From Halalkalicoccus sp. CGA53 (GTDB lineage: Archaea; Halobacteriota; Halobacteria; Halobacteriales; Halalkalicoccaceae): DNA of 64,000 bases. The first letter of the stretch is position 1. Each line of letters starts with the position of its first letter. The position numbers and the translations under genes were made by a program. The notes beneath the pieces were generated by a model. It had not been told where the DNA came from. It made no database searches and was given only the letters and a program-made list of their open reading frames with translations. The stretch covers positions 2,418,001-2,482,000 of the forward strand of contig NZ_CP144125.1 in NCBI RefSeq assembly GCF_036429475.1, written 5' to 3'. Below, in pieces: positions 8,076 through 16,368 of this stretch.

Positions 8076-9056
8076 CTAGAGCCGCGAGACGACGGCCTCG
8101 GTCACGTCCTCCGTACCGGCCTCGCCGCCCAGATCCGGGGTTCGCGGACCGTCCGAGAGCACGCCCGTCATCGCGGACTCGACCCGGTCTGCCCCGTCGT
8201 CGTAACCGAGATGCGAGAGCATCAGCGCCGCCGAGAGGATCGCCGCCGTCGGGTTCGCTCGCCCCTCGCCGGCGATGTCCGGCGCCGTGCCGTGGACGGG
8301 TTCGAAGAGGCCGTTCTCCTCGCCGACGTTCGCGCTCGGGAGCAGGCCGAGACCGCCGACCAGCCCGGCCGCCAGATCCGAGAGTACGTCACCCGCGAGG
8401 TTCGGACAGACGACGACCCCGAATGTTTCGGGGCTGAGACAGACGTGCGTCGCGAACGCGTCCATCAGCACCTCGTCGGCCTCGACGCCTCGCTCCTCGG
8501 CGACCGAGAGCACCGCCTCCCGGAACCGGCCGTCGGTCTCGCGCATCACGTTCGCCTTGTGTGCGACCGTGAAGCCGTCGTGCTCGCCGCGCTCGACGTA
8601 CTCGCAGGCGAACTCCGCCAGCCGTTCGGAGGCCGACGTCGTCACGACCCGGGTGAGCGTCGAGAGATCGGGCGAGAGCCGGTTCTCGTGGCCCGAGTAG
8701 ACCCCCTCGGTGTTCTCCCGGAGGAAGACGAGGTCCGTCTCGGGACGCAGCGCGTCCACACCCGGGTACGCCCGCGCTGGCCGGACGTTCACGAACGAGC
8801 CGACGGCCTCCCGCAGGGGTAAGATCACGTCGGCAGCCGTCTCGCCCGCCGCGCCGAACAGCGTCGCGTCCGCCTCGGCCGCGAGGTCGTACGTCCCCTC
8901 CGGGAGCGCCTCGCCGGTCTCGCTCCGTACCCCGTCGCCCGCCTCCCCCTCGACGTACTCGAAGTCGGTGTCCAGCGCGTCGAGCACCGAGATCGCCGCC
9001 GGGACGACTTCCTGTCCGATGCCGTCGCCGGGGATCACCGCGATCCGCTCAGTCAT
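8076..9056 (-). CDS. leuB: 3-isopropylmalate dehydrogenase
   Basis: 326 residues of the isocitrate/isopropylmalate dehydrogenase fold: [16 protein letters not shown] at the N-terminus, the substrate-binding Arg segment ([22 protein letters not shown]), and [20 protein letters not shown] then [20 protein letters not shown] for metal and NAD binding. It oxidatively decarboxylates 3-isopropylmalate in leucine synthesis. It overlaps leuD by 8 bases and ends the seven-gene BCAA operon. The leu context argues against isocitrate or homoisocitrate dehydrogenase. Confidence 0.95.
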
Positions 9057-9708
9057 CGGCCTGTCCGGGGATGTGGTCCTCCGGCACGTACGGCAGCGAT
9101 CGGGCGGTCCTCCTCACTTCCTCGGTGTTCGCCTTCATCAGCGCCGTGGTGTCCCAGACACCCTCGACGAGCGCCTTTCGCTGGGCGTCGTCGACGTCCA
9201 CCTCGACCGTCCGACCGCCGTAGCTGACGGTCTCGCTCTCGACGTCGATCTCGATCCCCCCGTCGGGGTGGTCGTCGATCCAGTCCTGGAGCTCGACGAT
9301 CGTCCCGTGGTCGGCCGTCACCGTGGGAATGCCGAGCGCGAGGCAGTTGCCCGCGAAGATCTCCGCGAAGCTCTCGCCGACCACCGCGTCGATCCCCCAG
9401 CGGGTGAGCGCCTGCGGGGCGTGTTCGCGCGAGGAGCCACAGCCGAAGTTCGCGTTCACGACGAGTACGTTCGCCTCCTGGAAGCGCTCCTCGTTGAACG
9501 GGTGGGCCTTCTCCTCGTCGTCGTCGGTAAAGCGCTGGTCGAAGAAGGCGAACTCTCCGAGGCCGTCGAACGTGACGACCTTCATGAAGCGCGCGGGGAT
9601 GATCTGATCCGTGTCGATGTCGTTTCCGCGAACCGGGATCCCGGTCCCGGAGACGAACTCGACGGTCTCTGCGGGGCCGTCTCCCGATCCGTCGCTCGCC
9701 CCGCTCAT
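9049..9708 (-). CDS. leuD: 3-isopropylmalate dehydratase small subunit
   Basis: 219 residues from ATG 9708, which sits in an ATGA overlap with the leuC stop (9705). The core has [15 protein letters not shown] and the swivel-domain loop [15 protein letters not shown] that contacts substrate. With LeuC it isomerises 2- to 3-isopropylmalate. The N-terminal ~20 residues ([14 protein letters not shown]) are an acidic haloarchaeal extension. A much longer frame reading through leuC in another phase exists but is only a shadow. Confidence 0.95.
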
Positions 9709-11126
9709 ACGCGTGCCACCTCCGGCAGTCTCCGCACGTCGGTCACTTCCCCTTCGATCGCCGCCGCGGCGACCATCTGCGGGTTCATCAGGATCGTCCG
9801 ACCGTCCTTCGAGCCCTGCCGACCGACGAAGTTCCGGTTGGAGGAACTCGCACACGCCTCGTCGCCCTCCAACTGATCTTCGTTCATCCCGAGACACATC
9901 GAACAGCCCGCGTTGCGCCAGTCGAAGCCCGCCTCGCGGAAGACGTCGGCGAGCCCCTCCTCCTCGGCGGTTCGCTGGACGCGCTGGCTGCCGGGGACGA
10001 CCATCGCGCGCACGTCCGGATGGACCTCCCGGCCCTCGACGATCCGCGCAGCTCTCCGGAGATCGGGCAGCCGTGCGTTCGTACACGACCCGAGGAAGAC
10101 GACGTCGACCTCGTAGCCCTCCATCGTCTCGCCCGGCGTCACCCGCATGTGCTCCTGGGCGCGGCGGGCGACCTCCGCCTTCTCCTCGGGCATCCCCTCG
10201 GGATCGGGGATCGGCTGGGTGATGCCGACGCCCTGTCCCGGCGTCGTCCCCCAGGTGACGACCGGCTCCAACGAGCTCCCGTCGATCGTCACCACGTCGT
10301 CGTACTCGGCGTTCTCGTCCGAGCGGATCGACTCCCAGTACGGCAGAAGCTCCGCGAACCGATCCTCCTTCTCCCGGAATGCGTCGGTCTCTCTGAGCCA
10401 CTCGTAGGTCGTCTCGTCGGGGTTGACGTAGCCCGCACGCGCCCCGCCCTCGATCGACATGTTGCAGATCGACATTCTGCCCTCCATGCCGAGGGACTCG
10501 ATCGCGGAGCCGGCGTACTCGTAGACGTAGCCGACGCCGCCCTCTGTGCCGAGCCGGCGGATGATCTCGAGGATGACGTCCTTCGCCTCGACGCCCTCAC
10601 CGAGCTCGCCCGTCACCTCGATCTTCCTGACCTTCTTCTTCTCCATCGCGACGGTGCCCGTCGCGAGCACGTCCCGGATCTGGGAGGTGCCGATCCCGAA
10701 CGCGAGCGCACCGAACGCACCGTGCGTCGAGGTGTGGCTGTCGCCACAGACGATCGTCATCCCCGGCTGGGTGAGCCCCTGCTCCGGGCCGATCACGTGG
10801 ACGATCCCCTGGTTCCCGGTCTCCGGGTGGTCGAACGCGATGCCCGCCTCGCGGACGTTCTCCTCGAGTTCGGCCATCATCTCCTCGGCGGCGTCGTCGC
10901 GGTAGGGCCGGCTCTGGTCGGCTGTCGGGAGGATGTGGTCGACCGTCGCGTGCGTTCTCCGGGGGTAAGCGACCTCCATGTCGCGCTCTTCGAGCATCCC
11001 GAACGCCTGCGGGCTCGTCACCTCGTGGATCAGGTGCAGGCCGACGAACAGCTGTGTCTGGCCGGTCGGCAGCGTCGTCACCGCGTGTCGGTCCCAGACC
11101 GTGTCGTAGAGCGTCCCTTCGCTCAT
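9705..11126 (-). CDS. leuC: 3-isopropylmalate dehydratase large subunit
   Basis: 473 residues, normal for LeuC. It has the aconitase-family blocks IVCGDSHTSTHGAFGALAFG, FLGSCTNARLPDLR (first [4Fe-4S] Cys) and GCSMCLGMNEDQL (the other two Cys), plus SNRNFVGRQG near the C-terminus. It forms the iron-sulfur half of isopropylmalate isomerase with LeuD. It overlaps its neighbours by four bases on each side, so it should be made in step with them. Confidence 0.96.
   Translation of the reverse strand: MSEGTLYDTVWDRHAVTTLPTGQTQLFVGLHLIHEVTSPQAFGMLEERDMEVAYPRRTHATVDHILPTADQSRPYRDDAAEEMMAELEENVREAGIAFDHPETGNQGIVHVIGPEQGLTQPGMTIVCGDSHTSTHGAFGALAFGIGTSQIRDVLATGTVAMEKKKVRKIEVTGELGEGVEAKDVILEIIRRLGTEGGVGYVYEYAGSAIESLGMEGRMSICNMSIEGGARAGYVNPDETTYEWLRETDAFREKEDRFAELLPYWESIRSDENAEYDDVVTIDGSSLEPVVTWGTTPGQGVGITQPIPDPEGMPEEKAEVARRAQEHMRVTPGETMEGYEVDVVFLGSCTNARLPDLRRAARIVEGREVHPDVRAMVVPGSQRVQRTAEEEGLADVFREAGFDWRNAGCSMCLGMNEDQLEGDEACASSSNRNFVGRQGSKDGRTILMNPQMVAAAAIEGEVTDVRRLPEVARV

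Positions 11127-11397: not shown

Positions 11398-11401
<4 letters not shown>
11123..11401 (-). CDS. Conserved-position small protein between ilvC and leuC, internally duplicated (92 aa)
   Basis: ATG at 11401 overlaps the ilvC stop and the TGA at 11123 overlaps the leuC start, so the gene is locked into the BCAA operon. The protein contains two related segments: residues ~8-29 ([12 protein letters not shown]...ELFLRG) and ~63-83 ([12 protein letters not shown]...RVFERG), joined by an acidic linker (residues ~35-62). No Cys, no membrane helix. I do not recognise a domain; I recall a hypothetical gene at this place in other haloarchaeal ilv-leu operons. The overlapping start and stop codons make it a real gene; its role is unknown. 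Confidence 0.72.
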
Positions 11402-12421
<1,020 letters not shown>

Positions 12422-12429
<8 letters not shown>

Positions 12430-13090
12430 CGTACGTAACCCATTGGTCGTGCATTCGTTCGTAGCGATCCTCCTCGACGTCGGTCGTCCACTCGCTCCCG
12501 CGGGCCATCGCCGTCTGGCCGGTACGAGAGAGCTCGCGCACCCCGAAGCGCTGGAAGGCGTCGATCGCCTTGTCGATCTTCCCCTCCGAGCCGGTGATCT
12601 CGACGGTGATCGTCTCGCGCCCGGCGTCGAGCGTCTTCCCGTCGTACATCCCCGTCACCGCGTGGACCTTCTCCGGGTCCTCGGCGTGGACCTTGAGCAC
12701 CACGAGCTCGCGGCGGATCGCGTCGGAGCCGAGCTCCTTCACCGAGATGACGGGCAAGAGCTTCCCGAGCTGTTTCTTCACCTGTTCGATCCCCGGATCG
12801 GGCTCCTCGATCACGAGCGTGATCCGTGCCGTCTCGGGGTTCGTCGTCGGCCCGACGGTGAGCGACTCGATGTTGAACTGGCGGCGGCTCACGAGCCCGG
12901 AAACGTTCGCGAGCACGCCCGGCTCGTGTTCGACCAGCGCCGAGAGCACCGTCCGCCTCGATTTCGGCTCCGCCTCGACCTCTGGGTCGATCCGGATCCC
13001 CTGGATGTTCCGTCTGCCGACCGGTTTCGGTCGCTCCTCCGGGGCCGGTCCGGGCAACGCGTACGGGTCGTCGGTGTCGCTTCGGCTCAC
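12422..13090 (-). CDS. ilvN: Acetolactate synthase regulatory (small) subunit
   Basis: 222 residues from a GTG at 13090 that overlaps the ilvB stop (GTGA). After an ~45-residue polar extension an ACT domain begins ([28 protein letters not shown]), followed by the C-terminal activation domain. It activates IlvB and gives feedback inhibition by valine in the family. The frame can be read far further upstream inside ilvB, but that is a shadow. The GTG is chosen because of the exact 4-base coupling. Confidence 0.93.
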
Positions 13091-14841
13091 AGGTGGTCCT
13101 CCGTCAGCGCGAACTGCCCGTTGTCCCCGCCGCTCGGAACCATCGGGTAGACGTTCGTCCCGGGGTCGATGTGGACGTCGACGACCGACGGGCCCTCGTA
13201 GCCGAGTGCCGCCTCGATCGTCTCCTCGACCTCGTCGTACTCGGTCATGCGGAACCCGCGGGCGCCGAACGCCTCGGCGACCGTGTCGAACGCGGGCACC
13301 CACGGGTACTCCGATGCGGAGTGACGCTCCTCGAAGAAGGCGTCCTGCCACTGTCTGACCATCCCGACCGCCTCGTTGTTCAGGACGAAGACGGTGATAT
13401 CCAGGTCGTGTTCGACCGCCACCGCGAGCTCCTGTAACGTCATCAGGAACGAGCCGTCGCCGTCGAAACAGACGACCCCCTGGTCGTCGTCGGCGGCGTA
13501 GCGCGCGCCGATCGCCGCCGGCAGGCCGTAGCCCATCGTCCCGAGTCCGTGCGAGGAGACCCAGGTGCGCGGCTTGGTGTACGTCCAGTAGAGACAGGCC
13601 CACATCTGGTGCTGGCCGACGCCGGTCGTGACGACCGTATCCGACGGCGTCGCGGCGTCGACCGCCTCGACGACGAACTCCGGCCTGAGCGGGGCGTCCT
13701 CGTCGATCGCGTAGGAGAGGGGGTACTCCTCCTTCCAGGTGCGACACTGCTCGCGCCAGGTGTCGGCCTCCGGCGGCCGTGCCATCGCCTCGTCGAGCTG
13801 GGCGAACGCGGCCTTCGCGTCCGCGATCACGGGCACGTCCGCGTGGATGTTCTTCGAGACCTCCGCGGGGTCGATCTCGACGTGGATCACCTCCGCGTCC
13901 GGCGCGAACGTCTCGACACCCCCCGTGAGTCGGTCGTCGAAGCGCGTTCCGACCGCGAGCATCGTGTCGCAGTGGGTGATCGCCATGTTCGCGTAACCGG
14001 TGCCGTGCATCCCCGCCATCCCCATCGAGAGGTGGTGGTCCTCGGGGAACGACCCGATACCGGGCATCGTCGTCACCACGGGGATCTCGTACGTTCGCGC
14101 GAACGTCCGCAGCTCCTCGCACGCCTCGCCCTTGATCACGCCGCCGCCGGCGAGGATCACGGGTCGCTCGGCCCGCGAGAGCGTTCTCACTGCTGCGTCG
14201 ATCGCCTCCGGGTCCGCCTCGCTCGGCGGATCGTAGTTCTTCGGTCGCCTCGGCGCGCCGGGTCGTTTCGTCGTCTCGCCCAGCGTGACGTCCTTCGGGA
14301 GGTCGACCAGCGTCGGGCCCGGCCTACCGGTCCCGGCGAGTTCGAACGCCTCGCCGACGACGTCGCCGACCGTATCCGAATCCGTCGCGAAGTAGTTCGT
14401 CTTCGTGATCGGCGCGGTGATCCCCGTCGTATCCGTCTCCTGGAACGCGTCGTTACCGACGAACGCCCGCGGGACCTGGCCCGTGAGCGCGATCATCGGA
14501 TCCGAGTCCATCGATGCGTCGGCGATCCCGGTGACGAGGTTCGTCGCGCCCGGCCCGGAGGTCGCGAGACAGACGCCCGGTTCGCCGCTCACGATGCCGT
14601 AGGCGTCCGCCGCGTGCGAGGCGCCCTGTTCGTGAGCCATCGTGACGTGCTCGATCGTCGAGTCGTAGAGCGCGTCGTAGACGGGCATGATCGCCCCGCC
14701 CTGGACGCCGAAGGCGGTCGTCACTCCGGCGTTCTCGAGGGCGGCGATCACCGCCTCCGCGCCGCGTTCGATCGGTCGTTGTTCCGTGCTCTCCCCGTGT
14801 TCGTCGGTTCGTGGTGTGTGGTGTGTCGCTCGGTCGCTCAT
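13087..14841 (-). CDS. ilvB: Acetolactate synthase catalytic subunit
   Basis: 584 residues. It has the TPP-activating Glu in MAHEQGASHAADAYG, the FAD/quinone-type middle domain, and the TPP-Mg motif GDGSFLMTLQELAVAVEHDLDITVFVLNN near residue 470. It condenses pyruvate with pyruvate or 2-oxobutyrate, the first common BCAA step. First structural gene of the seven-gene operon. A GAGGGA Shine-Dalgarno-like sequence sits just before the ATG, unlike the leaderless genes around it, which agrees with a long 5' leader of about 150 bases (see the leader ORF). Confidence 0.95.
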   Translation of the reverse strand: MSDRATHHTPRTDEHGESTEQRPIERGAEAVIAALENAGVTTAFGVQGGAIMPVYDALYDSTIEHVTMAHEQGASHAADAYGIVSGEPGVCLATSGPGATNLVTGIADASMDSDPMIALTGQVPRAFVGNDAFQETDTTGITAPITKTNYFATDSDTVGDVVGEAFELAGTGRPGPTLVDLPKDVTLGETTKRPGAPRRPKNYDPPSEADPEAIDAAVRTLSRAERPVILAGGGVIKGEACEELRTFARTYEIPVVTTMPGIGSFPEDHHLSMGMAGMHGTGYANMAITHCDTMLAVGTRFDDRLTGGVETFAPDAEVIHVEIDPAEVSKNIHADVPVIADAKAAFAQLDEAMARPPEADTWREQCRTWKEEYPLSYAIDEDAPLRPEFVVEAVDAATPSDTVVTTGVGQHQMWACLYWTYTKPRTWVSSHGLGTMGYGLPAAIGARYAADDDQGVVCFDGDGSFLMTLQELAVAVEHDLDITVFVLNNEAVGMVRQWQDAFFEERHSASEYPWVPAFDTVAEAFGARGFRMTEYDEVEETIEAALGYEGPSVVDVHIDPGTNVYPMVPSGGDNGQFALTEDHL

Positions 14842-14910
14842 CGTCCCTCGTGTCGCTGGTCGCTGGTCGGTTCGGAGTCGGTACGGGTCGGGTCGGGGGA
14901 TGAGGGATGA

Positions 14911-14926
14911 GGGGCTAGGCTGCCCC
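14911..14926 (-). promoter_or_regulatory. Hairpin over the stop codon of the ilvB leader ORF
   Basis: On the minus strand GGGGC-AGCCTA-GCCCC gives a perfect 5-bp GC stem. It covers the last two sense codons and stop codon of the leader ORF, and is followed by a pyrimidine-rich stretch (CTCATCCCTCATCCCCC). A ribosome finishing or stalling in the leader would decide whether it forms. Regulatory use is inferred. Confidence 0.45.
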
Positions 14927-14995
14927 TACGATAATGAGCGAGGCGTCGACGCCGCTCTCGACCGGTCGGACCCGTGTCGGAGCGGTTCGTCGCAT
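14915..14995 (-). CDS. Candidate leader peptide of the ilvB operon (26 aa)
   Basis: ATG at 14995, TAG at 14917-14915. The ORF begins ~30 bases after a good TATA box, so the transcript would start at or within a few bases of this ATG (leaderless). The peptide is Arg-rich at its start (MRRTAPTRVR) and ends SLIIVGAA; the Leu-Ile-Ile-Val codons are CTC ATT ATC GTA, two of them (ATT, GTA) rare in this GC-rich DNA. This is the layout of a BCAA attenuation leader. Its translation and function are inferred, but promoter position, codon content and the hairpin at its stop agree. Confidence 0.55.
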   Translation of the reverse strand: MRRTAPTRVRPVESGVDASLIIVGAA

Positions 14996-15020
14996 CTACT
15001 CGGCTCTGAGTGAGCGATCC

Positions 15021-15030
15021 GATATAAACC
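15021..15030 (-). promoter_or_regulatory. TATA box of the ilvB leader transcript
   Basis: Minus-strand GGTTTATATC, centred ~30 bases before the leader-ORF ATG and ~180 bases before the ilvB ATG. It is the only strong TATA sequence between leuA and ilvB, so the operon likely starts here. Confidence 0.7.
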
Positions 15031-15134
15031 TTCCCGATCGGACCTCCGACGGTCGGCTCGGCGGGTGCGAACGCCTCCTCCCGGTCGGAGCTCCGGACGC
15101 GTCGCTCCGCGGGACGGACTCGCGGTGCGCGCAT

Positions 15135-16368
15135 CTACGCCCGCACCCCCGTCTCCTGGACGACGCCCTCCTCGCGGGCGAACCGTTTGACGTCCGCGAT
15201 CGTGACGCGGTTCTTCGCCGCGCCGTACTCCTTCACCCGGCGGGTGACCGTCCGGACCTCCTCGTCGGTCGGGTCGAAACCGGCGTCGGTCAGGAACTCC
15301 CGGACCGAGTGGGTGCCGGTATGTTTGCCGAGCACCAGCTCCCTGGTCGCACCGACCATCTCCGGGGTCATGATCCCCGGCTCGAACGTGTCGCTGTTCT
15401 CGATCACGCCCGCGGCGTGGATGCCGCTCTCATGGGCGAAGGCGTTCTTGCCGACGATCGGCTTGTTCGCCGGGGTCGGGACGTCCGAGCACTCCTCGAC
15501 CAGTCGAGAGAGCTCGGTGATTCGGGTCGTGTCGATGCCGGTGTCGACGCCGTAGACCGCCTCGACGGTCATCACGACCTCCTCGTAGGCGGCGTTTCCG
15601 GCGCGCTCGCCGATGCCGTTGACCGAGACCTGCGACTGGGAGGCCCCGGCCTCGTAGCCGGCGATGGCGTTCGCCGACGCCATCCCGAAGTCGTCGTGGG
15701 TGTGGACGTCGACGCGCGCGTCGGTGTGCGCACAGACCGTCTCGATCAGGGTTCCGAAGCGGCTCGGGACCGCGACCCCACAGGTGTCGGGGATGTTGAT
15801 CCAGTCGACGTCCTCGTCGCTGACCGCCTCGATCACGTCGATCAGGTACTCGCCGTCGGTACGGGTCGCGTCCATCGGCGAGAACATACACTCGACACCG
15901 GCCTCCTTCACCCTCCTCACCGACTCGACCGCACGCTCTCTGGCCTCCGCGCGGCTGGCGTGCATCGAGTCCTCTAACTGGACGTCGCTGGTCGAGACGA
16001 AGACGTGGACCATCTCCACACCGGAGTCGAGTGCGGCCTCGACGTCGCCGTCGACCACGCGGGCGAGCCCGCAGGTCGTCGCGGCGGTACCCTCCGCTAT
16101 GTCTCGCACGGCTTCGAACTCGGCCTCCGAGTTCACGGGAAAGCCCGCCTCGATGACGTGCGTCCCCATCTCGTCGAGCGTCGCCGCGATGCGTCGCTTG
16201 TCCTCGTAGGAAAACGACGTCCGTGGCGTCTGCTCGCCGTCGCGAAGCGTGGTGTCGAAAACCCTCGCCGAACGAATTTCGTTACCGGGAGCTAACGTGC
16301 CCTGGAAGAACTCGTTCCCCCCGGCTGGTGCCGGAGGCTACCTCCGTCGAACGCGATGGTTCGGACAT
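15135..16368 (-). CDS. leuA: 2-isopropylmalate synthase, interrupted by a single-base frameshift
   Basis: The frame ending at 15135 encodes a DRE-TIM enzyme: FDTTLRDGEQTPRTSFSYED, HTHDDFGMASANAIAGYEAGA and NGIGERAGNAAYEEV, condensing acetyl-CoA with 2-oxoisovalerate. Going upstream this frame has sense codons (NEFFQGTLAPGNEIRSARV) but reaches a TAG with no ATG, GTG or TTG. The ATG at 16368, placed ~27 bases after a TATA box, is in another frame. Removing one base from the C6 run at 16317-16322 (G6 on the coding strand) joins them into a 410-residue protein. The internal ATG at 16169 would lose the catalytic N-terminus. The C-terminal LeuA regulatory domain is absent, as in short archaeal enzymes. 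Confidence 0.85.

Follow-up and report, generated by a model that had tools for sequence, protein, structure and literature searches.

The window analysed here is a 64,000-nucleotide stretch of the Halalkalicoccus sp. CGA53 genome. On its minus strand, seven genes in the order ilvB, ilvN, ilvC, X, leuC, leuD and leuB overlap end to start, as the initial annotation had reported and as the ORFs of the window bear out. Between a leuA-like gene (stop near 15135) and the ilvB ATG lies a short leader ORF, annotated here as uORF1, which is preceded by a BRE/TATA-like promoter and ends in a small hairpin with a pyrimidine-rich tract immediately behind it (Table 1). Read from the sequence, the start of the TTAT core stands 32 nt before the leader ATG. 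From this ATG to that of ilvB the distance is 154 nt, and from the uORF1 stop it is 73 nt. The final codons of the leader, CTC ATT ATC GTA GGG GCA GCC TAG, merge into the hairpin, such that the TAG (14917-14915) falls within the hairpin loop and the 3' arm. When the transcript was folded, the stem had a local pairing probability of 0.9998. The TATA box, the 26-codon ORF, its Leu-Ile-Ile-Val codons and the stem over the stop had all been described in the initial annotation and were found where it had placed them; its estimate that ilvB begins about 155 bases further on, with a GAGGGA site of its own, agrees with the measured distance and with GAGGGA at 14849-14844.

Table 1. Features of the ilvB leader region and of the downstream operon (window coordinates)
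Feature	Position	Strand	Basis and remarks
BRE/TATA-like promoter GGGAAGGTTTATATC	15021..15040 (ends at 15021)	minus	sequence; BRE-like part CGATCGGGAA, TATA-like part TTTATAT
uORF1, leader peptide MRRTAPTRVRPVESGVDASLIIVGAA followed by stop	14915..14995	minus	ORF reading; ATG at 14995, 26 codons; predicted leaderless
Control codons CTC 14938, ATT 14935, ATC 14932, GTA 14929	14927..14938	minus	conserved pair is ATC-GTA (14932-14927)
Hairpin GGGGC-AGCCTA-GCCCC	14911..14926	minus	arms GGGGC 14926-14922 and GCCCC 14915-14911; encloses uORF1 stop
G-free pyrimidine-rich tract TCATCCCTCATCCCCC	14895..14910	minus	immediately 3' of hairpin
Shine-Dalgarno-like GAGGGA of ilvB	14844..14849	minus	sequence
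ilvB, acetolactate synthase large subunit, putative regulated gene	13087..14841	minus	Pfam TPP_enzyme_N/M/C
ilvN	12422..13090	minus	named from position and sequence; GTG start, overlaps ilvB
ilvC	11398..12429	minus	named from sequence; overlaps ilvN
Uncharacterized small ORF, 92 aa	11123..11401	minus	ORF reading; between ilvC and leuC inside overlapping operon
leuC	9705..11126	minus	named from sequence
leuD	9049..9708	minus	named from sequence
leuB-type dehydrogenase	8076..9056	minus	named from sequence; final gene in overlapping run

A Pfam search of the window gave no match to the LeuA_dimer domain in the adjoining leuA ORF, which is in line with the earlier statement that LeuA lacks its C-terminal feedback domain; the argument for leader control that had been drawn from this absence is weak, and the 5' end of the gene appears frameshifted in the assembly. 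The apparent frameshift of this leuA-type gene (window 16170-16368, minus strand) lies near a six-G run (about 16317-16322), and the conserved N-terminus (EFFQGT...RVFDTTLRDGEQTP) is out of frame with the ATG at 16368. This could reflect either a sequencing error or a broken gene.

A total of 80 ilvB loci were fetched from named haloarchaea, 79 of which had enough upstream sequence, and a leader ORF with a hairpin is present upstream of ilvB in all 79. In 70 of these loci the short ORF ends (I/L/V/M/F)-V-G-x0-4-stop, and the remaining nine share this core but terminate four codons later. At the DNA level, the core of the named loci reads AT(T/C)GTAGGGG(C/T)...CCCC. The strict search pattern ATTGTAGGGGYN{2,9}CCCC matched 108 of the 146 class genomes, nearly always at a single site, and the reversed pattern, which served as the control, gave a handful of matches in total. 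Nearly all of the genomes with no strict match have the element upstream of ilvB with ATC, GTA or CTC as the first codon, and the element is present in all but three of the 146 sampled Halobacteria genomes. These three, in which the core is missing, are L146, which has a degenerate version (IRVRAAMAH followed by a stop, with GTA and then a GGGCC/GGCCC hairpin), and L181 and L185, in which nothing resembling the leader was found upstream of ilvB. Outside the class, 53 genomes from a 60-genome sample of the phylum yielded two chance-like matches with no in-frame stop. Among the class genomes, where the pattern occurs about once per genome, no further ilv or leu genes sharing the motif were seen. 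Across the 121 relatives compared in detail, the N-termini of the leaders vary, and uORF1 runs into (I/V/L)VG(A/V)x and a stop, with all C-termini being (I/V/L)-V-G-(A/V). Because virtually all of the sampled haloarchaea have this layout ahead of ilvB, the arrangement in the window is, by this comparison, far beyond chance. Comparison with related genomes had been proposed in the initial annotation as a check on the locus; run here, it shows the ORF, the Ile/Val codons and the hairpin to be retained throughout the class, and the observation, as read from these sequences, is larger than first thought, namely a class-wide ilvB element.

The invariant part of the leader is (Ile/Val/Leu)-GUA-GGG. 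The second control codon is GUA and the next codon is GGG in 121/121 leaders, and at these loci GUA makes up 0.3% of the Val codons in ilvB (13/3891). The first control codon is AUU in 79 leaders, AUC in 39, GUA in two and CUC in one; AUU thus accounts for 65% at this position as compared to about 6% of the Ile codons in ilvB. Where the first codon does not encode Ile, it is another branched-chain amino acid (BCAA) codon, giving GTA GTA GGG in L151 and L164 and CTC GTA GGG in L182. Exchange at the first position is thus confined to branched-chain codons, a pattern that favors a ribosome as the reader over a motif of nucleotides alone. With (I/V/L)-GUA invariant before the hairpin, the leaders hold only two to four BCAA codons, fewer than classical leaders. 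The original reading of four control codons, LIIV, holds for the Ile and Val codons and is too broad for Leu, since conservation covers the pair of Ile (or Val/Leu) and the following invariant GUA but does not extend to the Leu codon. In the genome of the window, tRNA-Val(UAC), of which there is one, tRNA-Val(GAC) and tRNA-Val(CAC) are encoded by separate genes, so GUA has a dedicated tRNA. Among the Val codons of the neighboring genes, GUA accounts for 13/3891 in ilvB, 19/1457 in ilvN, 182/3683 in leuA (intermediate) and 143/2364 (6%) in ilvC. Avoidance of GUA across the whole operon was considered and is true of ilvB and ilvN; since ilvC does not avoid the codon, operon-wide avoidance was not relied on, and the pattern in ilvB and ilvN is suggestive only.

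The promoter profile common to 76 leaders is C.CG.AA...TTAT, which fits the haloarchaeal promoter consensus TTWT / CGAAA (PMC4983044). In 87 of the 101 loci with a recognized promoter, the TATA-to-ATG distance is 32 nt, and in 96 of the 101 the first ATG past the TATA element is in frame with the core. With this spacing, the transcript is predicted to be leaderless, as are 72% of the coding transcripts in H. volcanii (PMC4983044). The leaders of the 121 loci differ in length by whole codons and end in stop codons of all three kinds (TAG 100, TAA 14, TGA 7). From these features, we infer that the leader ORF is translated and under selection. Searches of the leader gave no Pfam match and no Rfam family above the gathering score, with three chance-level Rfam matches and no T-box.

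The hairpin directly abuts the control codons, and its stem is at least 4 bp in 121/121 leaders and at least 5 bp in 120/121. In the relatives, the stop codon is usually in the hairpin loop or the 3' arm. It ends at or before the 3' arm in 112/121, leaving the arm outside the ORF yet complementary, and the conservation of CCCC is therefore not explained by coding. The inner stem pair is C-G in 95 leaders, U-G in 9, U-A in 3, G-C in 1 and unpaired in 13 (n = 121); a co-variation comparison revealed that the arms pair better within a species than when swapped (p = 0.003), and the local pairing of GGGG in folds of the leaders has a mean probability of 0.97. In leaders of the Natronorubrum type (L033, L034, L042, L043, L051, L056, L090, L094 and L103), a longer stem, GGGGCG/CGCCCC, lies wholly within the ORF and the stop comes four codons later (IVGA.xPxx and stop). 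The G-free run 3' of the hairpin has a median length of 12 nt, as compared to 1 nt inside ilvB, and T4 runs follow the hairpin in 27/78 loci, where 6.7 were expected from shuffles. No canonical terminator with a strong U-run was seen; the T-runs are short and occur in about a third of the 78 loci. Likewise, RNAalifold and the native-versus-swapped tests on the haloarchaeal leaders supported no mutually exclusive antiterminator helix. Three other pairings were considered and rejected. A second helix between the leader body and a downstream CGCACCG block, proposed by RNAalifold, was not better in native than in swapped sequences (p = 0.34) and its pairs are broken by common changes; a long-range pairing between the leader and the ilvB start, suggested by the fold of the window, was likewise no better in native sequences (p = 0.23); and sequestration of the ilvB Shine-Dalgarno by the C/U tract, visible in the window, has no common match in the relatives as judged by eye only.

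A second ORF, uORF2, starts after uORF1 in 102/121 loci, in most of them 58-77 nt past the uORF1 stop, and the distance from the uORF1 stop to the next start has a mode of 65-74 nt. In nearly all of the 102 loci, uORF2 overlaps the ilvB start by ATGA, and the ilvB Shine-Dalgarno GGAGG is often contained in its final codons. The encoded peptides are basic and about 10-40 aa long (loci L031-L109 and L141-L170). I, L and V constitute 2.2% of their residues as compared to 17.6% in ilvB, an 8-fold depletion, and 13% and 8% in the other two frames of the same region. Ahead of uORF2, the sequence contains few T and is relatively open. The window has no uORF2, and the ilvB ATG takes its usual position.

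Because the ORF, the Ile/Val codons and the hairpin are conserved class-wide, a translated leader peptide that senses Ile and Val is well supported by the comparative data, and we consider it likely that the leader is a ribosome-read amino-acid sensor, i.e., a leader-peptide attenuator, for ilvBNC-leuCDB. In the mechanism proposed here, the transcript would begin at the leader ATG or only a few bases away from it, and a ribosome would read the short ORF as a leaderless message. With Ile-tRNA and Val-tRNA charged, the ribosome would pass AUY-GUA, reach the stop inside the hairpin, and leave; the GGGGC/GCCCC hairpin would then form and expression of the operon would be lowered. With Ile or Val in short supply, the ribosome would stall on AUY-GUA, its footprint would cover the 5' arm, the hairpin would be held open, and the operon would be expressed. 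Of the attenuator claimed in the initial annotation, the leader peptide, the Ile/Val codons and the hairpin now stand for the class; that the leader responds to BCAA-tRNA and affects ilvB, that the ribosome stalls, and in which direction and through which output control works are what we infer from this arrangement.

For the output of the sensor, premature termination or pausing of transcription in the tract behind the hairpin has, in our estimate, close to an even chance. The output may instead lie in translation from the downstream start, a possibility raised by the fixed distance to the next start and by the ATGA overlap; we lean towards the transcriptional output because the tract is G-free and T-enriched. 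The translational alternative, which we regard as tentative, would use the same sensor, with the leader and hairpin controlling initiation or re-initiation at the start ∼70 nt downstream and uORF2 passing ribosomes to ilvB via ATGA. The regular placement of that start, which the window keeps with ilvB itself at 73 nt, the near-universal overlap of uORF2 and ilvB, and the T-poor, relatively open region before uORF2 are consistent with such a design; however, conserved pairing of the leader was found neither with the ilvB start nor with the intergenic block, and the small hairpin would have to act 70 nt away.

The remaining explanations dispense with a codon-reading sensor. The nucleotide core might be a protein-binding RNA hairpin or a riboswitch-like element in which the ORF is incidental, and AUYGUAGGGGY...CCCC is indeed constrained beyond the needs of the peptide. 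We consider this unlikely given the in-frame first ATG after the TATA element, the indels of whole codons, the three kinds of stop codon just past the core, the exchange of the first codon among Ile, Val and Leu only, and the absence of a matching Rfam family. Nascent-peptide arrest, in which the IVGA C-terminus would stall the ribosome alone or together with a free amino acid, would account for the conservation of I-V-G-A/V beside the stop, but GUA and GGG are invariant as codons, which an arrest peptide would not require; moreover, the final residue is free to vary, and the stretch from Ile onward is 4, 5 or 9 residues long. We regard this explanation as improbable. Finally, short ORFs are common in GC-rich DNA, but class-wide conservation and the presence of GUA in 121/121 leaders contradict a chance ORF with no function, to which we assign practically no weight.

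A second candidate leader-peptide attenuator, again proposed from sequence features, is associated with pheS. A 26-aa uORF before pheS (HVO_2948) of H. volcanii is listed by Babski et al. (PMC4983044, Table 2). In 22/30 haloarchaeal loci, pheS is preceded by a short ORF whose last ten residues include three or more Phe; it typically ends ...GFGFFFA and a stop, and the window's own genome has such a leader (L199, MVSEPETGVRTAREQAASVDGFGFFT and a stop, near 2217400-2217500). The same test gave 0/29 before tyrS and 0/29 before trpC. Tyr- or Trp-rich leaders were also looked for at these genes, and none were found. In the pheS leaders (L186-L215), a conserved downstream block, CGGTGGA...GCGAAACCG, looks able to pair. 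Taken together, the ilvB and pheS leaders suggest that haloarchaea have two or more leader systems in which the control codons correspond to the gene under control. It is somewhat probable, in our view, that translation-dependent attenuation is a general haloarchaeal control of amino-acid genes, one that would comprise at least two unrelated leaders (Ile-Val/ilvB and Phe/pheS) and combine leaderless translation and a single hairpin with the archaeal transcription machinery.

In the enterobacterial ilvGMEDA/ilvBN and leu attenuators, the position of the ribosome at the control codons decides the state of the RNA, and rare codons are used. Those leaders have runs of many BCAA codons and paired antiterminator and terminator helices, whereas the haloarchaeal leader has a single hairpin and just two or three control codons. 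The nearest described system, and a close analogue, is the ilvBNC attenuator of Corynebacterium glutamicum (ilvL, MTIIRLVVVTARRLP), which has the same operon head and a leader peptide with BCAA codons (PMC11857589). The leader peptide there is leaderless, with the transcription start 1 nt away from its ATG, and GUA is named as a conserved control codon (PMC11857589). The C. glutamicum leader forms three alternative hairpins with a proven terminator; in the haloarchaeal leader, by contrast, a single hairpin holds the stop and no antiterminator was detected, the machinery of transcription and translation is archaeal, and in most cases a second ORF overlaps ilvB. The ilvB leaders of Streptomyces and the actinobacterial LEU element of leuA also have a short BCAA ORF overlapping a hairpin, although the mode of regulation is unclear there (PMC1262725), and they have poly-U terminators, unlike the haloarchaeal leader. 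Mutating the ilvB leader codons of S. coelicolor had no effect (PMC1262725), which is a warning for the haloarchaeal leader too.

Small leader ORFs have been described in mapped 5' UTRs of H. volcanii, with no description there of control codons, hairpin or mechanism (PMC4983044). The ilvB leader is absent from the uORFs that this 2016 start-site study lists in 5' UTRs of 150-250 nt, and control by structured leaders was judged not to be typical of haloarchaea (PMC4983044). A 2021 paper stated that a transcription attenuation/antitermination mechanism is not known in archaea (PMC8448881). No later report of archaeal attenuation was found in the open-access literature, outside of which many journals lie, and no papers on HVO_1509 or comparable haloarchaeal leader peptides were found in the same literature, outside of which most subscription papers lie. 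Leader-peptide attenuation is a known bacterial kind of control and, as far as could be checked, had not been described in archaea.

If the proposed mechanism is true, the ilvB leader would be an instance of a kind of attenuation for which, according to the 2021 paper, no archaeal example was known. With its invariant control codons, a leader present throughout the class would show that in archaea, too, amino-acid genes are controlled by the position of the ribosome, in a setting of eukaryote-like transcription and leaderless translation. The leader also offers a direct genetic test in Haloferax volcanii and may provide a small BCAA-responsive switch for haloarchaeal genetics. Moreover, it would make it possible to examine, at a defined site, whether transcription and translation are coupled in archaea.
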